Shown: piece after piece, positions 5,220 to 12,830 of the stretch
Layout of the letters: every line of letters begins with the position of its first letter
How positions within the stretch are numbered: the first letter of the stretch is position 1
Source: Anaerolineae bacterium
GTDB lineage: Bacteria > Chloroflexota > Anaerolineae > J102
Assembly: GCA_011371305.1 (NCBI GenBank)
Contig: DRQW01000165.1
Coordinates: 1-37,764 of the forward strand
Length of the DNA stretch: 37,764 nucleotides
Direction of reading: 5' to 3'
Made by a program: the position numbers and the translations under genes
The notes under the pieces: model-generated
What the model was told of the DNA's origin: nothing
Database searches by the model: none
What the model saw: only the letters and a program-made list of their open reading frames with translations

Positions 5220-5258
5220 GAACCACTAGACCGATTTTTCCCATTTCCGGTGGCCGCG

Positions 5259-5987
5259 ATGCTTGACAAAAATCACCCTCTCCCCATCTATTTTCAGCTA
5301 AAGGAATTGCTCCGGGAAAAGATTGCGTCCGGTGAATGGAAGCCGGGAGACATGGTACCATCGGAACGGGAGCTGAGTGAGCAGTTCCATATCAGCCGCA
5401 TGACCGCGCGCCAGGCCCTGAGTGAGTTGGCCACGGAGGGGTTGTTGCGACGGGAGCAGGGTCGGGGGACGTTTGTGGCCGAACCGAAGATCGAACATGG
5501 CCTCACGCGGCTCACCGGTTTTACCGAGGACATGAAGGCGCGAGGGTTGAGGCCGGGCGCCCGGGTCATCCGCTTGGAGCTCATCACGCCGCCTTTGTTG
5601 GCGATGCAGGCGTTGCAGATCAGTCCAGAGACGAAGATCGTCTTGCTGGAGCGCTTGCGCCTAGCCGAGGGGGAGCCCATCGCCCTGGAAACCAGTCATC
5701 TGCATTTTCCGGGCGTAGAAGCTTTGTTGAATGAGGACTTTGAAAATCACTCCCTGTACAGCATCCTTTCTGAGAAGTATCAGATTACACCGGCTCGAGC
5801 CGTGCAGAAAATCGGGGCCGATCTTTGCAGCCAACGGGAACAAGCCCTACTGAACATTGGGGAGGGGGCGCCCGTGTTGCGAAACAAGCGTATCACCTAC
5901 GACCAGTGGGGTCGTCCTTTCGAATACACCGAATCCGCTTATCGTGCGGATCGCTACGTCTTCCAGGCTGAACTCAATGCATCGTGA
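5259..5987 (+). CDS. GntR/HutC family repressor, NagR/DasR-like
   Basis: This 242-residue regulator has an N-terminal winged helix (about residues 8-75). The recognition segment is PSERELSEQFHISRMTARQAL and the wing is LLRREQGRGTFVA. A C-terminal UTRA effector domain (about 92-238) contains LERLRLAEGEPIALETSHL. In this family NagR (Bacillus) and DasR (Streptomyces) bind glucosamine-6-P or N-acetylglucosamine-6-P and release DNA. The gene lies behind an operator of matching type and heads a MurNAc transport and degradation operon whose product is N-acetylglucosamine-6-P. A role as its local repressor is therefore inferred with fair confidence. The start is the ATG at 5259; a GTG three codons upstream is possible and neither has a strong ribosome site. 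Confidence 0.9.
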   Translation: MLDKNHPLPIYFQLKELLREKIASGEWKPGDMVPSERELSEQFHISRMTARQALSELATEGLLRREQGRGTFVAEPKIEHGLTRLTGFTEDMKARGLRPGARVIRLELITPPLLAMQALQISPETKIVLLERLRLAEGEPIALETSHLHFPGVEALLNEDFENHSLYSILSEKYQITPARAVQKIGADLCSQREQALLNIGEGAPVLRNKRITYDQWGRPFEYTESAYRADRYVFQAELNAS

Positions 5988-5993
5988 ATTTGG

Positions 5994-6010
5994 AGGAGGT
6001 TGCCATGTGA
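5994..6010 (+). promoter_or_regulatory. Strong ribosome site before an ATG-TGA start-stop and an in-frame GTG
   Basis: AGGAGGT at 5994-6000 is the strongest ribosome site in the region. The next ATG (6005-6007) is followed at once by TGA. A GTG at 6007 is in frame with the solute-binding lipoprotein and would add 24 residues before its signal peptide. Either the lipoprotein has a longer leader, or this is a start-stop leader that loads a ribosome upstream of the gene. The ATG at 6079 with its own AGGAGA remains the simpler start. Confidence 0.4.
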
Positions 6011-6078
6011 AACTGCCTATATCTCGTTCATTCCACTTTCGCCATCTCACCCCCACTTCATCAGGAGAAAACGTGATC

Positions 6079-7449
6079 ATGAAATCTACGCTATTCAAAC
6101 TCACCCTCTTCCTTTTGCTTATCGTCATGCTGGCGGGATGTGCGCAAAAGCCTGCAGATACGCAAGCGCCCGCCCAAAAACCCGCGGCCACCCAGGCACC
6201 TGCCCAAGAGAAGCCCACCGAGGCCCCCAAAGAGATGGCCACCGAGGCTCCTAAGGCCGAGGAAATGGCCCCTGTTACCCTGACCGTGTGGTCGTGGCGC
6301 ACTGAGGACGAGGATGCTTACAACGAGATCTTCGATGTGTATGAACAAGCGCATCCCAACGTCACCGTGGAATTCGTGCCTTTCGTCGCGACCGATTACA
6401 ATAACATTCTGGCTACGGGCCTCACGGGTGAAGGTGGGCCCGATGTGGTTCAGCTTCGCGCCTATGGCGGCTTGCAGCCCCTGGTGGAAGCGGGCCAGCT
6501 TTTGCCTCTGGACGGAAAAGTGAAAACCCTGTCCAACTTCTCGCCCGATCTGCTCAAGGGTGCCATGGGCGTCAAAGATGGGCATATCTACGGTGTGCCT
6601 TTTGGCATCCAAACCCTGGCCGCCTATTACAACAAGGGCATCTTCGAGAAGCTGGGCCTGAGTGAGCCCACCACCTGGGATGAATTCATCAATGTTCTGG
6701 AGACGCTGAAGAAAGAAGGTTACATCCCCATCGCGGCCCCGGCCAAAGACACCTGGATGCTGCCCATCATCCACGACACCGTAGGCGCGCCTCGCTATGG
6801 CGGGCCGGAATTCGAAAAGAAAATCCTGGCTGGCGAGACCGACTTCACCGATCCTAACTACGTCGCTTCCATCCAACTGGTGAAGGACCTGCAGCCCTAC
6901 ATGCCCGATAACGTGGTCGGCGTGAGCTATCAGGATGCTCGCACCCTCTTCCTCACCGAGCGAGCCGGCCTCTTCCTCGGCGGCTCCTTCGAGGTAGGCT
7001 ATTGGCGTAACGAGGGGCCTGAGCTGGACATCGGCATCTTCCGGGTGCCCCCGGCCCCCGATTCCGTCCTCGACCATCCGCTGACCCCTGGCTGGATGGA
7101 TGGATCCTACGGCGTCAATGCCAACAGCGACGCCAAGGAAGAAGCCATCAAGCTAGTGGAATGGATGGGCACCAAGGAATTCGGGCAAATGTTCACCGAG
7201 AAGATCAAGCAGCTTTCGCCCGTGCCAGGCACCGAACCCAAGGACCCGGTTCTGGCTCAGTTCGCCAAGTTCTATGAAGAAACGCCCGCGTCCTACATGC
7301 TGTTGGTGGATTTCCGCTATGGTGATCCTTCCGGCACAACCTTGATGGGCAATGGCATCCAGAAGATGCTGCTTGGCGAAATGACCGCGGAAGAGGTTGC
7401 CCAAAGCCTGCAAGAGGGCATCTCCCAGTGGTTCAAACCCAAACAATAA
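6079..7449 (+). CDS. Solute-binding lipoprotein of a sugar ABC transporter
   Basis: This 456-residue family-1 extracellular solute-binding protein starts with a lipoprotein signal peptide. A Lys-containing n-region and hydrophobic core end in LAGC, with Cys21 as the lipidation site. A Thr/Pro/Gln/Glu-rich linker (about residues 22-58) tethers it to the membrane. The mature domain begins at VTLTVWSWRTEDEDAYNEIF and shows the family pattern GGPDVVQLRAYGGLQPLVEAGQLLPLDG. It delivers an oligosaccharide or amino sugar to the two permeases downstream. Its operon points to MurNAc, GlcNAc or a muropeptide as ligand; that is inference. The start at 6079 is supported by AGGAGA ten bases upstream and the classical signal peptide. 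A stem-loop directly after the gene separates it from the permease genes. Confidence 0.92.
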   Translation: MKSTLFKLTLFLLLIVMLAGCAQKPADTQAPAQKPAATQAPAQEKPTEAPKEMATEAPKAEEMAPVTLTVWSWRTEDEDAYNEIFDVYEQAHPNVTVEFVPFVATDYNNILATGLTGEGGPDVVQLRAYGGLQPLVEAGQLLPLDGKVKTLSNFSPDLLKGAMGVKDGHIYGVPFGIQTLAAYYNKGIFEKLGLSEPTTWDEFINVLETLKKEGYIPIAAPAKDTWMLPIIHDTVGAPRYGGPEFEKKILAGETDFTDPNYVASIQLVKDLQPYMPDNVVGVSYQDARTLFLTERAGLFLGGSFEVGYWRNEGPELDIGIFRVPPAPDSVLDHPLTPGWMDGSYGVNANSDAKEEAIKLVEWMGTKEFGQMFTEKIKQLSPVPGTEPKDPVLAQFAKFYEETPASYMLLVDFRYGDPSGTTLMGNGIQKMLLGEMTAEEVAQSLQEGISQWFKPKQ

Positions 7450-7687: not shown

Positions 7688-8653
7688 ATGACCGTTTCTA
7701 CCGCCAAACCAACCAGGGGCAAAAAACGCAAACGCGCCAAGGGTGTGGGGACGGGCGCACCACCTTGGGAGATCATCGCGCTGTTCATCCTGCCAGCCTT
7801 TTTGCTTTACACCATCTTCATGATCTGGCCCTTGTTCCAGTCCTTGTATTTTAGTTTCTTCGAGTTCAAGGGCCTGGCGCGTGGTGGGTTCGTAGGATTG
7901 CGCAATTTTCATGAATTATTTACCCGGTACCCCTTGAATGAGCAGCTTCCCAGGGCGTTTTGGCACAATGTGTATTTCTTTATTGGGACCATGCTCATTC
8001 AGAATACCATGGGGCTGCTATTTGCCAAGCTGCTCTATGCCTCTCGCTTTGGCAAACGCTTCTTCCAGACGGTGTTTACCCTCCCATATCTCATCAGCGC
8101 CCTGGTGGTGGGCTATCTGTGGAGCTTGATGTTGAATCCGTTGTTTGGCCCGGTGAACCAAATTCTGCGGGCCATCGGGTTGGAATCGCTGGCCAGGCCC
8201 TGGTTGGGTGATCCGGCCACCGCTTTGCCCGCGATCATTTTGGTCAACGCTTGGCAATGGGTCGGTTTCCCTATGCTGCTTTTCTCGGCCGGGCTGGCCA
8301 ATATCAGTAATGAGCTGCGCGAAGCAGCCCATATCGACGGCGCTACCAGTTGGAAACTGTTTCGACACATCGAACTGCCCTTGCTTCTGCCCGTCATCGG
8401 CATCGTCACCGTGCTTACTTTCATCGGCAATTTCAACGTCTTCGGCATTGTGTGGGCCATGGGTGGGGTCAATGGTGAACCAGCCGGGGCCACGGACGTG
8501 CTGGGATTGGTGTTTTATCGGACAGCCTTTCGCGGGGGCGTGGATGCGTTCGGTCTGGCCTCCGCCCTGGCTGTGCTCATGTTCATTTTCATCTTCGGCG
8601 TCTCCATGTTGATGCTGCGTTACTTCCGCCACATGGAGGAAAACCTGACATGA
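7688..8653 (+). CDS. Sugar ABC transporter permease, MalF/UgpA type
   Basis: This 321-residue permease has a basic N-terminal tail (KPTRGKKRKRAKG) and a first membrane helix near residues 32-55. Five more helices carry the binding-protein-dependent transport domain (about 95-310). The EAA loop that docks the ATPase reads EAAHIDGATSWKLFRHIELP near residue 215. It forms a heterodimer with the next gene product. No ATPase gene of this transporter lies in the window, so a shared MsmK/UgpC-type ATPase elsewhere probably powers it. The gene follows a 238-base gap that holds the stem-loop at 7477. The start ATG has only a weak ribosome site (ACGAGG). Confidence 0.92.
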   Translation: MTVSTAKPTRGKKRKRAKGVGTGAPPWEIIALFILPAFLLYTIFMIWPLFQSLYFSFFEFKGLARGGFVGLRNFHELFTRYPLNEQLPRAFWHNVYFFIGTMLIQNTMGLLFAKLLYASRFGKRFFQTVFTLPYLISALVVGYLWSLMLNPLFGPVNQILRAIGLESLARPWLGDPATALPAIILVNAWQWVGFPMLLFSAGLANISNELREAAHIDGATSWKLFRHIELPLLLPVIGIVTVLTFIGNFNVFGIVWAMGGVNGEPAGATDVLGLVFYRTAFRGGVDAFGLASALAVLMFIFIFGVSMLMLRYFRHMEENLT

Positions 8654-9498
8654 GCCAACACATCCACCCTTCCTCCCGCCGTATCAATCTGGCCTCGATT
8701 GGAGCCAACGTACTCTTATGGGGCTATGCGGCCATTGTCATCTTACCCTTGTTATTGGTGGTGAGCAACGCCCTACGGCCCACGCGCGAAATCTTCAAGA
8801 ACCCCGTAGGGCTGCCCACGTCGCCCAGCTTCGAAAGTTTCGTCAAAGCGTGGGAAGAAGCCAGCTTCAACATTTATTTCTTCAACTCCTTGCTGATCAC
8901 CGTTGCTTCCGTGCTCTTGGCCACCGCGGTCTCGGCCCTGGCGGGCTACATGCTCGGGCGTTATAAATTCCGAGGAAGCATGTTACTGACCGCCTATTTT
9001 TTGGCTGGGCTCATGCTTCCCTTTCGACTGGCCATCGTGCCCCTGTTCCTTTTGCTCAACGATATGGGGCTCATCGACAATCGTCTGGGCCTGATCCTGG
9101 TCTATGCGGCCACAGGCATTCCCTTTTCCATCTTCATCCTCTCCTCTTTCTTCCGGCAACTGCCCAAAGAATTGAGTGAGGCCGCGCGTATCGATGGCGC
9201 GGGCGAATTCACCATCTTTGGTCGTATCATGCTGCCACTGGTGCGCCCCGCCCTGGCCACCGTTATTGTCTTTCAGTTTGTCCCTTTGTGGAACGACTTC
9301 TTCTTCCCCTTGGTTCTGCTTCGTTCCACCGACAAGTGGACGCTGCCTGTGGGCATGACCCGTTTCTTTGGTGAATTTCAGGCCGATTGGTCCACCCTCT
9401 TCGCTGGGCTTATCATCACCACCCTGCCCTTGATTATCATTTTCCTCCTGGCCACCAAACAAATCATTGCTGGGTTAACCGCAGGCATCGGCAAATAA
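8650..9498 (+). CDS. Sugar ABC transporter permease, MalG/UgpE type
   Basis: This 282-residue inner-membrane permease has six hydrophobic segments and an EAA loop, EAARIDGAGEFTIFGRIMLP, near residue 178. Its ATG overlaps the stop codon of the preceding permease (ATGA), so the two are translationally coupled and made in equal amounts. With the lipoprotein at 6079 they make up a carbohydrate-uptake (CUT1) transporter. The neighbours AmiE and MurK-MurQ suggest MurNAc or a MurNAc-peptide as cargo. Confidence 0.92.
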   Translation: MSQHIHPSSRRINLASIGANVLLWGYAAIVILPLLLVVSNALRPTREIFKNPVGLPTSPSFESFVKAWEEASFNIYFFNSLLITVASVLLATAVSALAGYMLGRYKFRGSMLLTAYFLAGLMLPFRLAIVPLFLLLNDMGLIDNRLGLILVYAATGIPFSIFILSSFFRQLPKELSEAARIDGAGEFTIFGRIMLPLVRPALATVIVFQFVPLWNDFFFPLVLLRSTDKWTLPVGMTRFFGEFQADWSTLFAGLIITTLPLIIIFLLATKQIIAGLTAGIGK

Positions 9499-9503
9499 TT
9501 AGG

Positions 9504-10724
9504 ATGCGTTCGCTGACCGACCCTTCCCTCGCGCCGCCGACCTGGCGCGCCATCGACGCCATCATGAAACAAGGGTTGGCGTCTGTGTTTCCGGCTGGCG
9601 TGTTGCTCATCCAGCAACACGGGCAAACTCGTTTCCATCAAAGCTATGGCTGGATCGAGCCGGAAGAAAAGCGCTGGCCTGTTCGCCTCGATACCCTCTT
9701 CGACCTGGCTTCTCTGACCAAACTCTTCACCGCCACCGCGTTGCTTACCCTGGTGAATGCGGGGAAAATCGGCCTGGACACACCCGTCTCCCAGGTCATC
9801 CCCGAATTCCGCGGCGTGCATCCCCTGCGCTCGGGGATCGACCCCCATACCAAACGGGTGCTTCCTCCCGATCCTCGCTGGAAGGGGAAGGCCACTCGTC
9901 TGGAACACATCACCTTTCGCCATTTGCTCACCCACACCTCGGGCCTCGCGGCCTGGGATGACATGTGTATTTCTGTGAACCAAACCGGGGTGATCTATCC
10001 GCACCAAGTGGATGCTGCCACGCGCCAGCGACGCTTGAACGTGTTGCTATACACACCCCGCGTGGTCACCCCGCCCGGAACACAGTGCCTTTACAGCGAC
10101 TTGGGTTTCATCCTGTTGGGCGAGGCCTTGGAACGACTCACGGCGGAACCTTTGCAAAAATACCTGCTGCGCCATGTGCTGACCCCCTTGGGGATGACCC
10201 ATGTCACCTTTAATCCTTTGGCGCATGGCGTTCCTCGCGAAACCATTGCTCCAACCGAACGCTGTCCCTGGCGTCAACGTCGGCTTTGGGGCGAAGTCCA
10301 TGATGAAAACGCGGCGTGTTTGGGGGGCGTGGCAGGCCATGCCGGGCTTTTTGGCACGGCCAGCGACGTGGCGAAGCTAGGAGAATGCTATCGCACAGGA
10401 GGTGGTGGCTTACTTTCACCCGCCTTGGCGCAAGAAGCGATTTCAGAGCAGGTAGCCACTTCGGGCGTGCGGCGGGGCCTGGGCTGGCAACTGATGACGA
10501 ATGATGGGAGTCCGGTGGGAAGAGGGTTTGGCCCGGACAGTTTTGGGCATACGGGCTTTACTGGCGTCTCCCTCTGGGTCGATCCGGCGCGCGCACTCAC
10601 GGTCGTGTTGTTAACAAACCGTGTCTATCACGGTCGTGCGCCTGAACCTATCGCTCAATTCCGCCTCCGCCTGCATCAGGCTATCCTCCAGGCGGTGGAC
10701 ACGCAATTGGAGCCTGTGCCATGA
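9504..10724 (+). CDS. amiE: AmiE/YbbE-like serine hydrolase (class C beta-lactamase fold)
   Basis: This 406-residue protein has the penicilloyl serine hydrolase motifs: Ser70-Leu-Thr-Lys73 (SxxK), Tyr197-Ser-Asp199 in the YxN position, and His349-Thr-Gly351 in place of KTG. The block VHDENAACLGGVAGHAGLF (265-283) is typical of the YbbE group. Bacillus subtilis AmiE (YbbE), encoded beside murQ, murP and nagZ, removes peptides from MurNAc. This gene sits one codon after the permease and overlaps the kinase-etherase gene, which supports the same role. Unlike the secreted Bacillus enzyme it shows no signal peptide, so it would act in the cytoplasm on imported MurNAc-peptide. I chose the ATG at 9504 over the open frame extending 39 codons upstream, since that stretch overlaps the permease gene. 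Another esterase or D-peptidase activity cannot be excluded. Confidence 0.82.
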   Translation: MRSLTDPSLAPPTWRAIDAIMKQGLASVFPAGVLLIQQHGQTRFHQSYGWIEPEEKRWPVRLDTLFDLASLTKLFTATALLTLVNAGKIGLDTPVSQVIPEFRGVHPLRSGIDPHTKRVLPPDPRWKGKATRLEHITFRHLLTHTSGLAAWDDMCISVNQTGVIYPHQVDAATRQRRLNVLLYTPRVVTPPGTQCLYSDLGFILLGEALERLTAEPLQKYLLRHVLTPLGMTHVTFNPLAHGVPRETIAPTERCPWRQRRLWGEVHDENAACLGGVAGHAGLFGTASDVAKLGECYRTGGGGLLSPALAQEAISEQVATSGVRRGLGWQLMTNDGSPVGRGFGPDSFGHTGFTGVSLWVDPARALTVVLLTNRVYHGRAPEPIAQFRLRLHQAILQAVDTQLEPVP

Positions 10725-12580
10725 GTGGATTTGTCATCGGCGTGGATGGTGGCGGCAGCAAAACTGAAGCCGTGCTTCTGGATTGGGAGGGCCGAGAGCT
10801 GGGCCGGGGCCGGGGTGGGTCATCCAATTGGCATCTGGTGGGACGGGACGCAGCGCGAGACGTGTTGGCAGCGGTGATGGCCGAGGCCGCGACCGCGGCT
10901 GGGGTGGATTTGGCCCGGGTGCAGGCTGTCACTTGGGCGCTGGCTGGTGCAGGCCGGCCCGCCGAAGCGGATGCGTTGCGTTCTGTGCAGGCTGAATTGT
11001 TGCCCCATGCAGTCGGTCAGGTAGTGACCGACGCCCTGGCCGCGTTGGTGGGAGGTGTGGGGGCCCGCTTCGGTGTCGTCGCTATCTCGGGGACGGGGAT
11101 GATGGTGTATGGTGAAAATGGCCCGGACATCCAAGCTCGTGCGGGCGGCTGGGGTCACTTACTGGATGAAGGTAGTGGTTATGCCATCGCGATGCACGCG
11201 CTGCGGGCTATTGCACGCGTCCACGACCACGTCGACGCCCTGCCAACCCAACTGACTCAATCGCTTTTGGCGGCCCTTGGCCTTCATGCACCCCAACAGC
11301 TTATCCCCTGGTTGTATGCGCCTGAGCGTCGGCCCGCGCACGTGGCGGCCCTGGCACCGCTGGTATTGGATGCTGCGGAAGCAGGTGATCTTTTGGCCAT
11401 GGAGGGAATGTTGCGCGCGGCAGACGCCTTGGCCGCGGGCGTCGATGCTGTGGCCCGGCAATTGGCCTTGAAAACCCCCTTCCCCCTGGTGTTATCAGGC
11501 GGCCTGCTGACCGGGAATGCTTTTTATCGCGCGGTGGTCGCACAATCCATCCGTACACGCGTACCCGCGGCTCGCCCCATGCTTCCGCAGGCAGATGCGG
11601 CCACAGGCGCAGCGCTGTTGGCCCTGGCGATGTTGGGACGCACCTTACCTCCTCGTGTGTTACCATCGTCGGACGGGGATGGTGTATGGGCTTCGGAACA
11701 GCCGAATGTTTTGACCCACGAGCTGGATAGGCGTTCCGCGTTGGAACTGGCGGGGTTGATGCATCTGGAGGATGGTCGGGCCGTGGCTTCGATGCGTCCC
11801 GTTTTGCCTCAAATCGCCACGGCTATCGATGCCATCGCCGCGCGCATGAAGCAGGGCGGACGGTTGATCTACGTGGGGGCGGGGACGTCGGGCCGATTGG
11901 GTGTGTTAGACGCATCGGAATGCCCGCCCACCTTCAACACGGCCCCTGGCCAGGTGGTGGGCATCATCGCCGGAGGACCGAAGGCCCTGACTGAGGCAGT
12001 CGAAGAAGCCGAGGATGATCCCAACGCAGGGGCCCAGGACATCCAGGCATTGGATGTGGGGCCGTTGGATAGTGTGGTGGGCATTGCTGCCAGCGGACGT
12101 ACGCCCTATGTGGTCGGAGCATTGACTGAGGCCCGGCGGCGAGGCGCGTTGACCCTCGCGCTCATCTGCAACCTACCCGCACCCCTGGCCCAGATCGCGG
12201 AACACGTCATCGCTCCCTTGGTTGGCCCCGAAGTGATCGCCGGTTCGACCCGGCTCAAAGCGGGCACCGTGCAGAAACTTGCACTAAATATGCTCAGCAC
12301 GGGCGTCATGGTGCAGCTGGGGAAGACGTATGGGAATTTGATGGTGGACCTGCGGCAGCAAAACGTGAAATTACAACGCCGGGCGCGGCGCATCGTGGCT
12401 CAGGCATGCCAGATCACTGAGGAAGAAGCCGCACAGGTTTTGGCCCAAAGCCGGGGGGATGTGAAAGTGGCTATCGTCAGCTATCTGCTGGGGATCGATC
12501 CTGAAGCCGCGCGTCGCCGCTTGCAGCAGGCTGAAGGGTATGTGCGCAAGGCATTGTTGTCCCGAGATGCAAGCGAATGA
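10721..12580 (+). CDS. murQ: Bifunctional MurNAc kinase (BadF type) / MurNAc-6-phosphate etherase MurQ
   Basis: This 619-residue protein joins two complete enzymes. Residues 1-310 form a BadF/BadG/NagK-type sugar kinase: phosphate-loop GVDGGGSKTEAVLLD (7-21), second phosphate motif ISGTGMMVYG (122-131), and adenosine motif VLSGGLLTGN (257-266). Residues 325-615 form MurQ: SIS sugar-binding segment VGAGTSGRLG (385-394), catalytic DASE with Glu400, and the signature EVIAGSTRLKAGTVQK (504-519). The kinase would make MurNAc-6-P. MurQ then cleaves the lactyl ether to N-acetylglucosamine-6-P and D-lactate. Fusion lets one chain do both steps. The two domains are separated by a short linker near residues 311-325. 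ATG overlaps the amiE stop (ATGA). NagA and NagB, needed next, are not in the window. Confidence 0.93.
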   Translation: MSGFVIGVDGGGSKTEAVLLDWEGRELGRGRGGSSNWHLVGRDAARDVLAAVMAEAATAAGVDLARVQAVTWALAGAGRPAEADALRSVQAELLPHAVGQVVTDALAALVGGVGARFGVVAISGTGMMVYGENGPDIQARAGGWGHLLDEGSGYAIAMHALRAIARVHDHVDALPTQLTQSLLAALGLHAPQQLIPWLYAPERRPAHVAALAPLVLDAAEAGDLLAMEGMLRAADALAAGVDAVARQLALKTPFPLVLSGGLLTGNAFYRAVVAQSIRTRVPAARPMLPQADAATGAALLALAMLGRTLPPRVLPSSDGDGVWASEQPNVLTHELDRRSALELAGLMHLEDGRAVASMRPVLPQIATAIDAIAARMKQGGRLIYVGAGTSGRLGVLDASECPPTFNTAPGQVVGIIAGGPKALTEAVEEAEDDPNAGAQDIQALDVGPLDSVVGIAASGRTPYVVGALTEARRRGALTLALICNLPAPLAQIAEHVIAPLVGPEVIAGSTRLKAGTVQKLALNMLSTGVMVQLGKTYGNLMVDLRQQNVKLQRRARRIVAQACQITEEEAAQVLAQSRGDVKVAIVSYLLGIDPEAARRRLQQAEGYVRKALLSRDASE

Positions 12581-12666: not shown

Positions 12667-12830
12667 ACAATTGCAGATATCTTCGCCCCGTTGTGGGCGA
12701 CCGGGGGAAGTCCGGTGAAAATCCGGCGCTGTCCCGCAACTGTGAGAGCTTCGGCTCAAGCCAGATCGCCCGGCACAGGCGCAGCTTTCTGCGAGGCACA
12801 GAGGCTGCGAACGTTTCCTTTGCCCGACAT
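12667..12830 (+). promoter_or_regulatory. Cobalamin (B12) riboswitch aptamer
   Basis: The conserved core is clear: GGGGGAAGTCCGGTGAAAAT at 12703-12722, CCGGCGCTGTCCCGCAACTG at 12723-12742, and the B12 box AAGCCAGATCGCCCGGC at 12758-12774. The aptamer senses adenosylcobalamin. It lies between a strong promoter and an intrinsic terminator upstream of cobT, so high cobalamin should end transcription early. The outer limits of the aptamer are approximate. Confidence 0.95.

Follow-up and report, generated by a model that had tools for sequence, protein, structure and literature searches.

We describe a protein in which a sugar kinase and the etherase MurQ, predicted to catalyze two consecutive steps in the use of MurNAc, are joined in a single polypeptide. 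Its gene lies at positions 10721..12580 (+ strand) of the window, i.e. the whole 37,764-nucleotide stretch of DNA analyzed here, and runs from an ATG start in one frame to give a product of 619 aa. This comprises an N-terminal BadF/NagK/MurK-type kinase domain (residues 1-304; 10721..11632, +), delimited by Pfam PF01869, the match to 8zo3 and the AlphaFold secondary structure; an 18-residue linker (residues 305-322; 11633..11686, +), marked by weak conservation and lower model confidence; and a C-terminal MurQ (MurNAc-6-phosphate etherase) domain (residues 323-613; 11687..12559, +), delimited by TIGR00274 and 4s12. The fusion is probably a bifunctional MurNAc 6-kinase and MurNAc-6-P etherase, which acts on MurNAc imported in the unphosphorylated state. 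The proposal of the initial annotation that a full BadF-type kinase is joined to a full MurQ is borne out, with both profiles covered end to end within one 619-residue frame.

The MurQ half matches the whole of the MurQ equivalog model TIGR00274 over residues 325-612 (358.9 bits versus a cut-off of 302) and bears the motifs GAGTSGRLG (386-394), DASECPPTF (397-405) and EAVEEAEDD (425-433). Both conserved MurQ glutamates are present, namely E400 in the second of these motifs (codon 11918..11920, +) and E428 in the third (codon 12002..12004, +), which we take to be the positions of the acid Glu83 and the base Glu114, respectively, of the E. coli MurQ. The kinase half is matched by the full Pfam BcrAD_BadFG profile (PF01869) over residues 6-301 (E 1.7e-34; 120 bits versus a gathering threshold of 31.5). 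An AlphaFold2 model of the whole chain, for which 36 window and locus proteins formed the input alignment, has a mean pLDDT of 94.3 and a pTM of 0.92, with a dip at residues 311-320 and a confident relative placement of the two domains. In Foldseek comparisons the MurQ half recovers 4s12 with a TM of 0.96 and the kinase half recovers 8zo3, the MurK of C. acetobutylicum, with a TM of 0.90; the latter, a MurNAc/GlcNAc kinase, is the closest solved kinase.

A sequencing or assembly error that joined two adjacent genes deserves consideration, given that the window is a 37.8-kb contig from a metagenome-assembled genome (MAG) of 72% completeness in 213 contigs and that the contigs of several relatives break at the fusion gene. 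Against this, the joint recurs across many families, in genomes that were assembled independently of one another. The full-length counterpart in G406 has an identical in-frame junction and is 76% identical over residues 1-613; the in-frame junction is also found in G400, G401 and G405, which along with G406 belong to the window's genus, and in G411, a member of a different genus, two contigs share an identical overlap that spans the junction. Thus, the joint is found in six genomes of the window's family, one of them (G411) via two contigs, and the same kinase-MurQ architecture occurs in ten further genomes from other families of the Anaerolineae-like class of Chloroflexota. Pairwise dN/dS values are 0.15-0.26 for the kinase, 0.07-0.15 for MurQ and, where computable for so short a segment, 0.4-0.9 for the linker. 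Both halves are under purifying selection, i.e. there is codon-level constraint on either side of the joint. An origin of the fusion in assembly error, to which we give practically no credence, is ruled out by the conservation of the joint, and the protein is a natural fusion, as initially proposed, rather than the product of a frame-joining sequencing error.

Among the NCBIfam models the sole kinase match to the window protein is NagK_SO3507, and because the kinase half attains just 88 bits where the NagK model (NF046058) has a cut-off of 370, it is not a curated member of any substrate-defined family. A Pfam search of the window protein yielded no match to the AnmK domain (PF03702). The active site elements include DGGGSKT (9-15), GTG (124-126) and Asp104 within VVTDAL (codon 11030..11032, +), which aligns with the catalytic D95 of T. 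forsythia MurK in the loop between β5 and α3 and, as in that enzyme (T94), is preceded by Thr. In T. forsythia MurK, beyond the catalytic D95, D141 binds the C1 hydroxyl, N119 binds the C4 hydroxyl and the small residues S133-P134-L135 leave space for the lactyl group (PMC10465942). At the lactyl position the window kinase has the Gly of GGWG, aligned with G145 of human NAGK and P134 of T. forsythia MurK; this residue is small, whereas the bulky Glu or His found there in glucose kinases would collide with the lactyl ether.

The sugar-binding loop of the window kinase, GGWGHLLDEGSG (residues 142-153; 11144..11179, +), departs from this conservation in being one residue shorter than the GGWGxxxGDEGSG of standalone kinases, and reads GGWGHLL-DEGSG in the alignment. 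Accordingly, the earlier description of both halves as having intact motifs holds for those of MurQ and for DGGGSKT, Asp104 and GTG, but not for the GDEGS loop of the kinase. Of the 15 kinases in the main fused clade, 14 share the contraction, the remaining one (L133) having DTSGS instead, and the same clade has GTGM/A in place of GTGS. None of the standalone relatives with a readable loop is shortened (L123 has LLGDGGSG), and GDEGS is present in nearly all of them. Fusion itself is ruled out as the cause of the shortened loop, since the independent fusions L108 and L103 both retain GDEGSG. The Asp of this O1-recognising loop, equivalent to D141 of T. forsythia MurK, is present in the window kinase. 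As this Asp and the following GSG are kept, the window kinase is likely to be active despite its short loop; the contracted O1-binding loop may nevertheless have altered sugar binding in the kinases of the fused clade.

The same contraction, together with the GTGM/A substitution, could be read as a sign that the kinase half has no catalytic activity and instead regulates MurQ or serves as its scaffold, in a manner loosely resembling the interaction of GKRP and glucokinase; MurQ is homologous to GKRP. Also in favor of this reading is the fusion of G620 (L114:3838-5727), which has a seemingly intact MurQ and a kinase in which the phosphate loop is lost (AKEKREL), the catalytic Asp is replaced by His and GTG by GTE, and which from its sequence is a natural kinase-dead member. 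The other two frames do not yield the motif, which rejects a compensated frameshift as the source of this odd kinase. However, nearly all the other fusions preserve the phosphate-binding loop, the catalytic Asp and the GTG core (L115 has Asn for the first Asp of the loop), dN/dS over the kinase is low, and the Asp and Gly of D.GSG, which contact ligands in T. forsythia MurK, are retained. We hence consider an inactive kinase half very improbable.

The fusion is the last gene of an operon on the + strand. It is preceded by a GntR/UTRA regulator (5250..5987), the solute-binding protein of a sugar ABC transporter (5857..7449, with a frame that overlaps the GntR gene and a start that is probably later), two sugar ABC transporter permeases (7688..8653 and 8650..9498) and a serine hydrolase of the beta-lactamase family (9387..10724, start probably downstream of 9387), which is PBP4B/YfeW-like by NCBIfam, below the cut-off. 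The ATG of the fusion overlaps the stop of this upstream gene as ATGA, which suggests that the two are translationally coupled. The order GntR, solute-binding protein, two permeases, serine hydrolase and fusion is kept in G406, G401 and, up to the end of the contig, G411, and orthologues of the importer adjoin the fusion in G500 and G524. Downstream of the fusion an AdoCbl riboswitch (12688-12812) opens an unrelated cobalamin salvage cluster with DBI_PRT/CobT (12917), CbiZ (14960) and CobD/CbiB (15594); elsewhere in the window a 562-aa frame on the - strand (254-1942) has no Pfam or NCBIfam match.

This context fits MurNAc uptake and use. NamZ, the enzyme releasing MurNAc, is encoded adjacent to the fusion in G500, G455, G517 and G482, and none was detected in the window's genus or G411. 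MurA matches were found in all 16 fusion genomes (over the cut-off in 13), by virtue of which these organisms appear able to make peptidoglycan, and the operon can consequently be read as one for recycling or scavenging rather than as the sole source of MurNAc. With respect to later steps, G406, G400 and G524 gave no NagA match above the cut-off; as MurQ would yield GlcNAc-6-P there, these genomes might possess an unknown deacetylase or use GlcNAc-6-P directly.

ABC import delivers free sugar, whereas E. coli uses the MurP PTS, and a kinase is therefore needed; MurNAc kinases of the superfamily to which the kinase half belongs are biochemically established in C. acetobutylicum and in T. forsythia, in the latter beside MurQ (PMC5790795). 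We infer from domain identities and operon organization that MurNAc is the substrate, that both activities are present and that they act in the following order. The importer encoded upstream would bring in MurNAc unphosphorylated, the N-terminal ASKHA kinase would phosphorylate it at C6 with ATP in the cytoplasm, and the C-terminal MurQ, which is expected to dimerise like other MurQ proteins, would remove D-lactate from MurNAc-6-P to give GlcNAc-6-phosphate. The consecutive action of the two halves postulated in the initial annotation is in this sense supported, and hand-over of MurNAc-6-P within the chain (channelling) is possible.

Equally compatible with these observations would be a dual MurNAc/GlcNAc kinase. 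It overlaps with a serious rival, namely that GlcNAc (or a broad set of amino sugars) is the main substrate of the kinase half, in which case imported GlcNAc and MurNAc-6-P from elsewhere would both be converted to GlcNAc-6-P, without any requirement for the two sites to act sequentially. This reading has to be taken seriously because the MurK of C. acetobutylicum, the closest solved relative, itself slightly prefers GlcNAc over MurNAc (PMC5790795); the GGWG motif and overall fold are also common to human NAGK, and NagK_SO3507 is, as stated above, the only kinase model matched. Yet MurQ is the partner in all members, and the neighbors, where informative, are MurNAc genes (NamZ). Moreover, with neither a PTS nor a MurNAc kinase MurQ would be left without a substrate, and no AnmK was detected in seven of the ten fusion-bearing genomes tested. 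We therefore regard a primary role in GlcNAc phosphorylation as unlikely and favor MurNAc as the substrate of the kinase half.

The breadth of the domain pair was assessed in 396 genomes of the class, 127 of which have MurQ over the cut-off, by classifying MurQ genes with long frames and checking selected ones with Pfam and NCBIfam. The kinase-MurQ pair is present in 16 genomes from 8 families, the window's genus and G411 included, and the reverse MurQ-kinase order in one (L103, G550). AnmK-MurQ fusions are commoner, with about 21 genomes in several families (L023, L003, L002, L105, L106, L125, L130 and others) and frames of ~690-770 aa. Three further in-frame fusions were each recovered from one genome of the phylum sample: NamZ-MurQ (L052:1151-3235, G053), GH3 beta-N-acetylhexosaminidase-MurQ (L056:2787-5078, G191) and MurQ-NagA (L054:2211-4514, G386). 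Four other candidates were rejected: L051 is a frame shadow, its N-terminal 358 aa being NagA in another frame, and the partner of L055, L057 and L065 is likewise encoded in another frame. Elsewhere in the class and phylum, many murQ genes have a separate kinase gene next to them. A contig scan with a single fusion protein as query gave no matches; one with the fusion alignment, using the linker motif alone as pattern, recovered six loci in five MAGs, and the named records so matched are Anaerolineae or Chloroflexota MAGs. Plasmid and phage records yielded no fusion, the best match being T. roseum with 79% coverage and two separate genes.

In quick-search trees with SH-aLRT support only, the MurQ domains of the kinase-MurQ rows form one fully supported group of 13, which includes the contig-cut copies L035 and L036 from G411 and G407; outside it lie L108 (G430) and L115 (G636), the latter on a long branch, and a neighboring group holds the AnmK-MurQ rows. 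In the tree of the kinases, a single group (support 97) unites 15 of the fused ones, with L108 and the reverse fusion L103 apart. As L108 and L103 lie outside the main clade, these topologies indicate that the kinase and MurQ were joined at least three times (in the main clade, L108 and L103), besides the AnmK-MurQ fusions; the kinase-MurQ order would have arisen more than once and MurQ-kinase once. The natural kinase-etherase fusion initially recognized is thus real but was understated, since MurQ has been fused independently several times in the phylum, most often with AnmK. A bolder extension, which we advance as a speculation with little chance of being right in full, is that MurQ is a fusion hub in Anaerolineae-like Chloroflexota, repeatedly joined by selection to the preceding or following enzyme, and that the sugar site of the kinase in the main kinase-MurQ clade was remodelled through its contracted O1 loop such that MurNAc-6-P passes between the two halves of the chain instead of being released.

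Neither a MurK-MurQ nor an AnmK-MurQ fusion was found described in the open-access literature (open-licence PMC papers), and such proteins may already be visible in automatic annotation. Each domain was already known; what is new is their joining within a known pathway, and the most interesting part is the repeated joining around MurQ. The fusion provides a single protein suited to testing for channelling between two consecutive steps of cell-wall sugar recycling, with natural controls in the independently evolved versions (kinase-MurQ, MurQ-kinase and AnmK-MurQ) and the split versions. The fusions also furnish Rosetta-stone evidence that ties MurNAc to the uncharacterised ABC importer and the GntR regulator of bacteria known here from metagenome-assembled genomes only.

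Compared with known systems, the MurQ half resembles the enzymes of E. coli, H. influenzae (4lzj/1nri) and Y. enterocolitica (4s12) in whole domain, key Glu positions and fold, but known MurQs are separate proteins whereas that of the window makes up the C-terminal half of a fusion with a kinase. The C. acetobutylicum MurK (8zo3) shares the fold, DGGGSKT, GTG, catalytic Asp and GGWG with the window kinase, and differs in being standalone, in its complete GDEGSG loop and in having only about 30% identity to it. The MurTKQ operon of T. forsythia likewise encodes a transporter, a BadF-type kinase and MurQ together and handles unphosphorylated MurNAc; its components, however, are separate proteins, uptake is of the sodium-symporter type and the kinase is more distant (TM 0.77). 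The AnmK-MurQ fusions of other Anaerolineae-like families (e.g. L023, L003 and L105) similarly have a kinase feeding MurQ and joined to it N-terminally, but this kinase is of the AnmK family, with anhydroMurNAc as its known substrate, and the joint is different. Finally, Thermomicrobium roseum encodes murQ and a BadF kinase as adjacent genes (TRD_RS12420/12415), in the neighborhood of AnmK, a beta-N-acetylhexosaminidase, a serine hydrolase and NagA; unlike in the window, these are two genes, with murQ first, which overlap without fusion.
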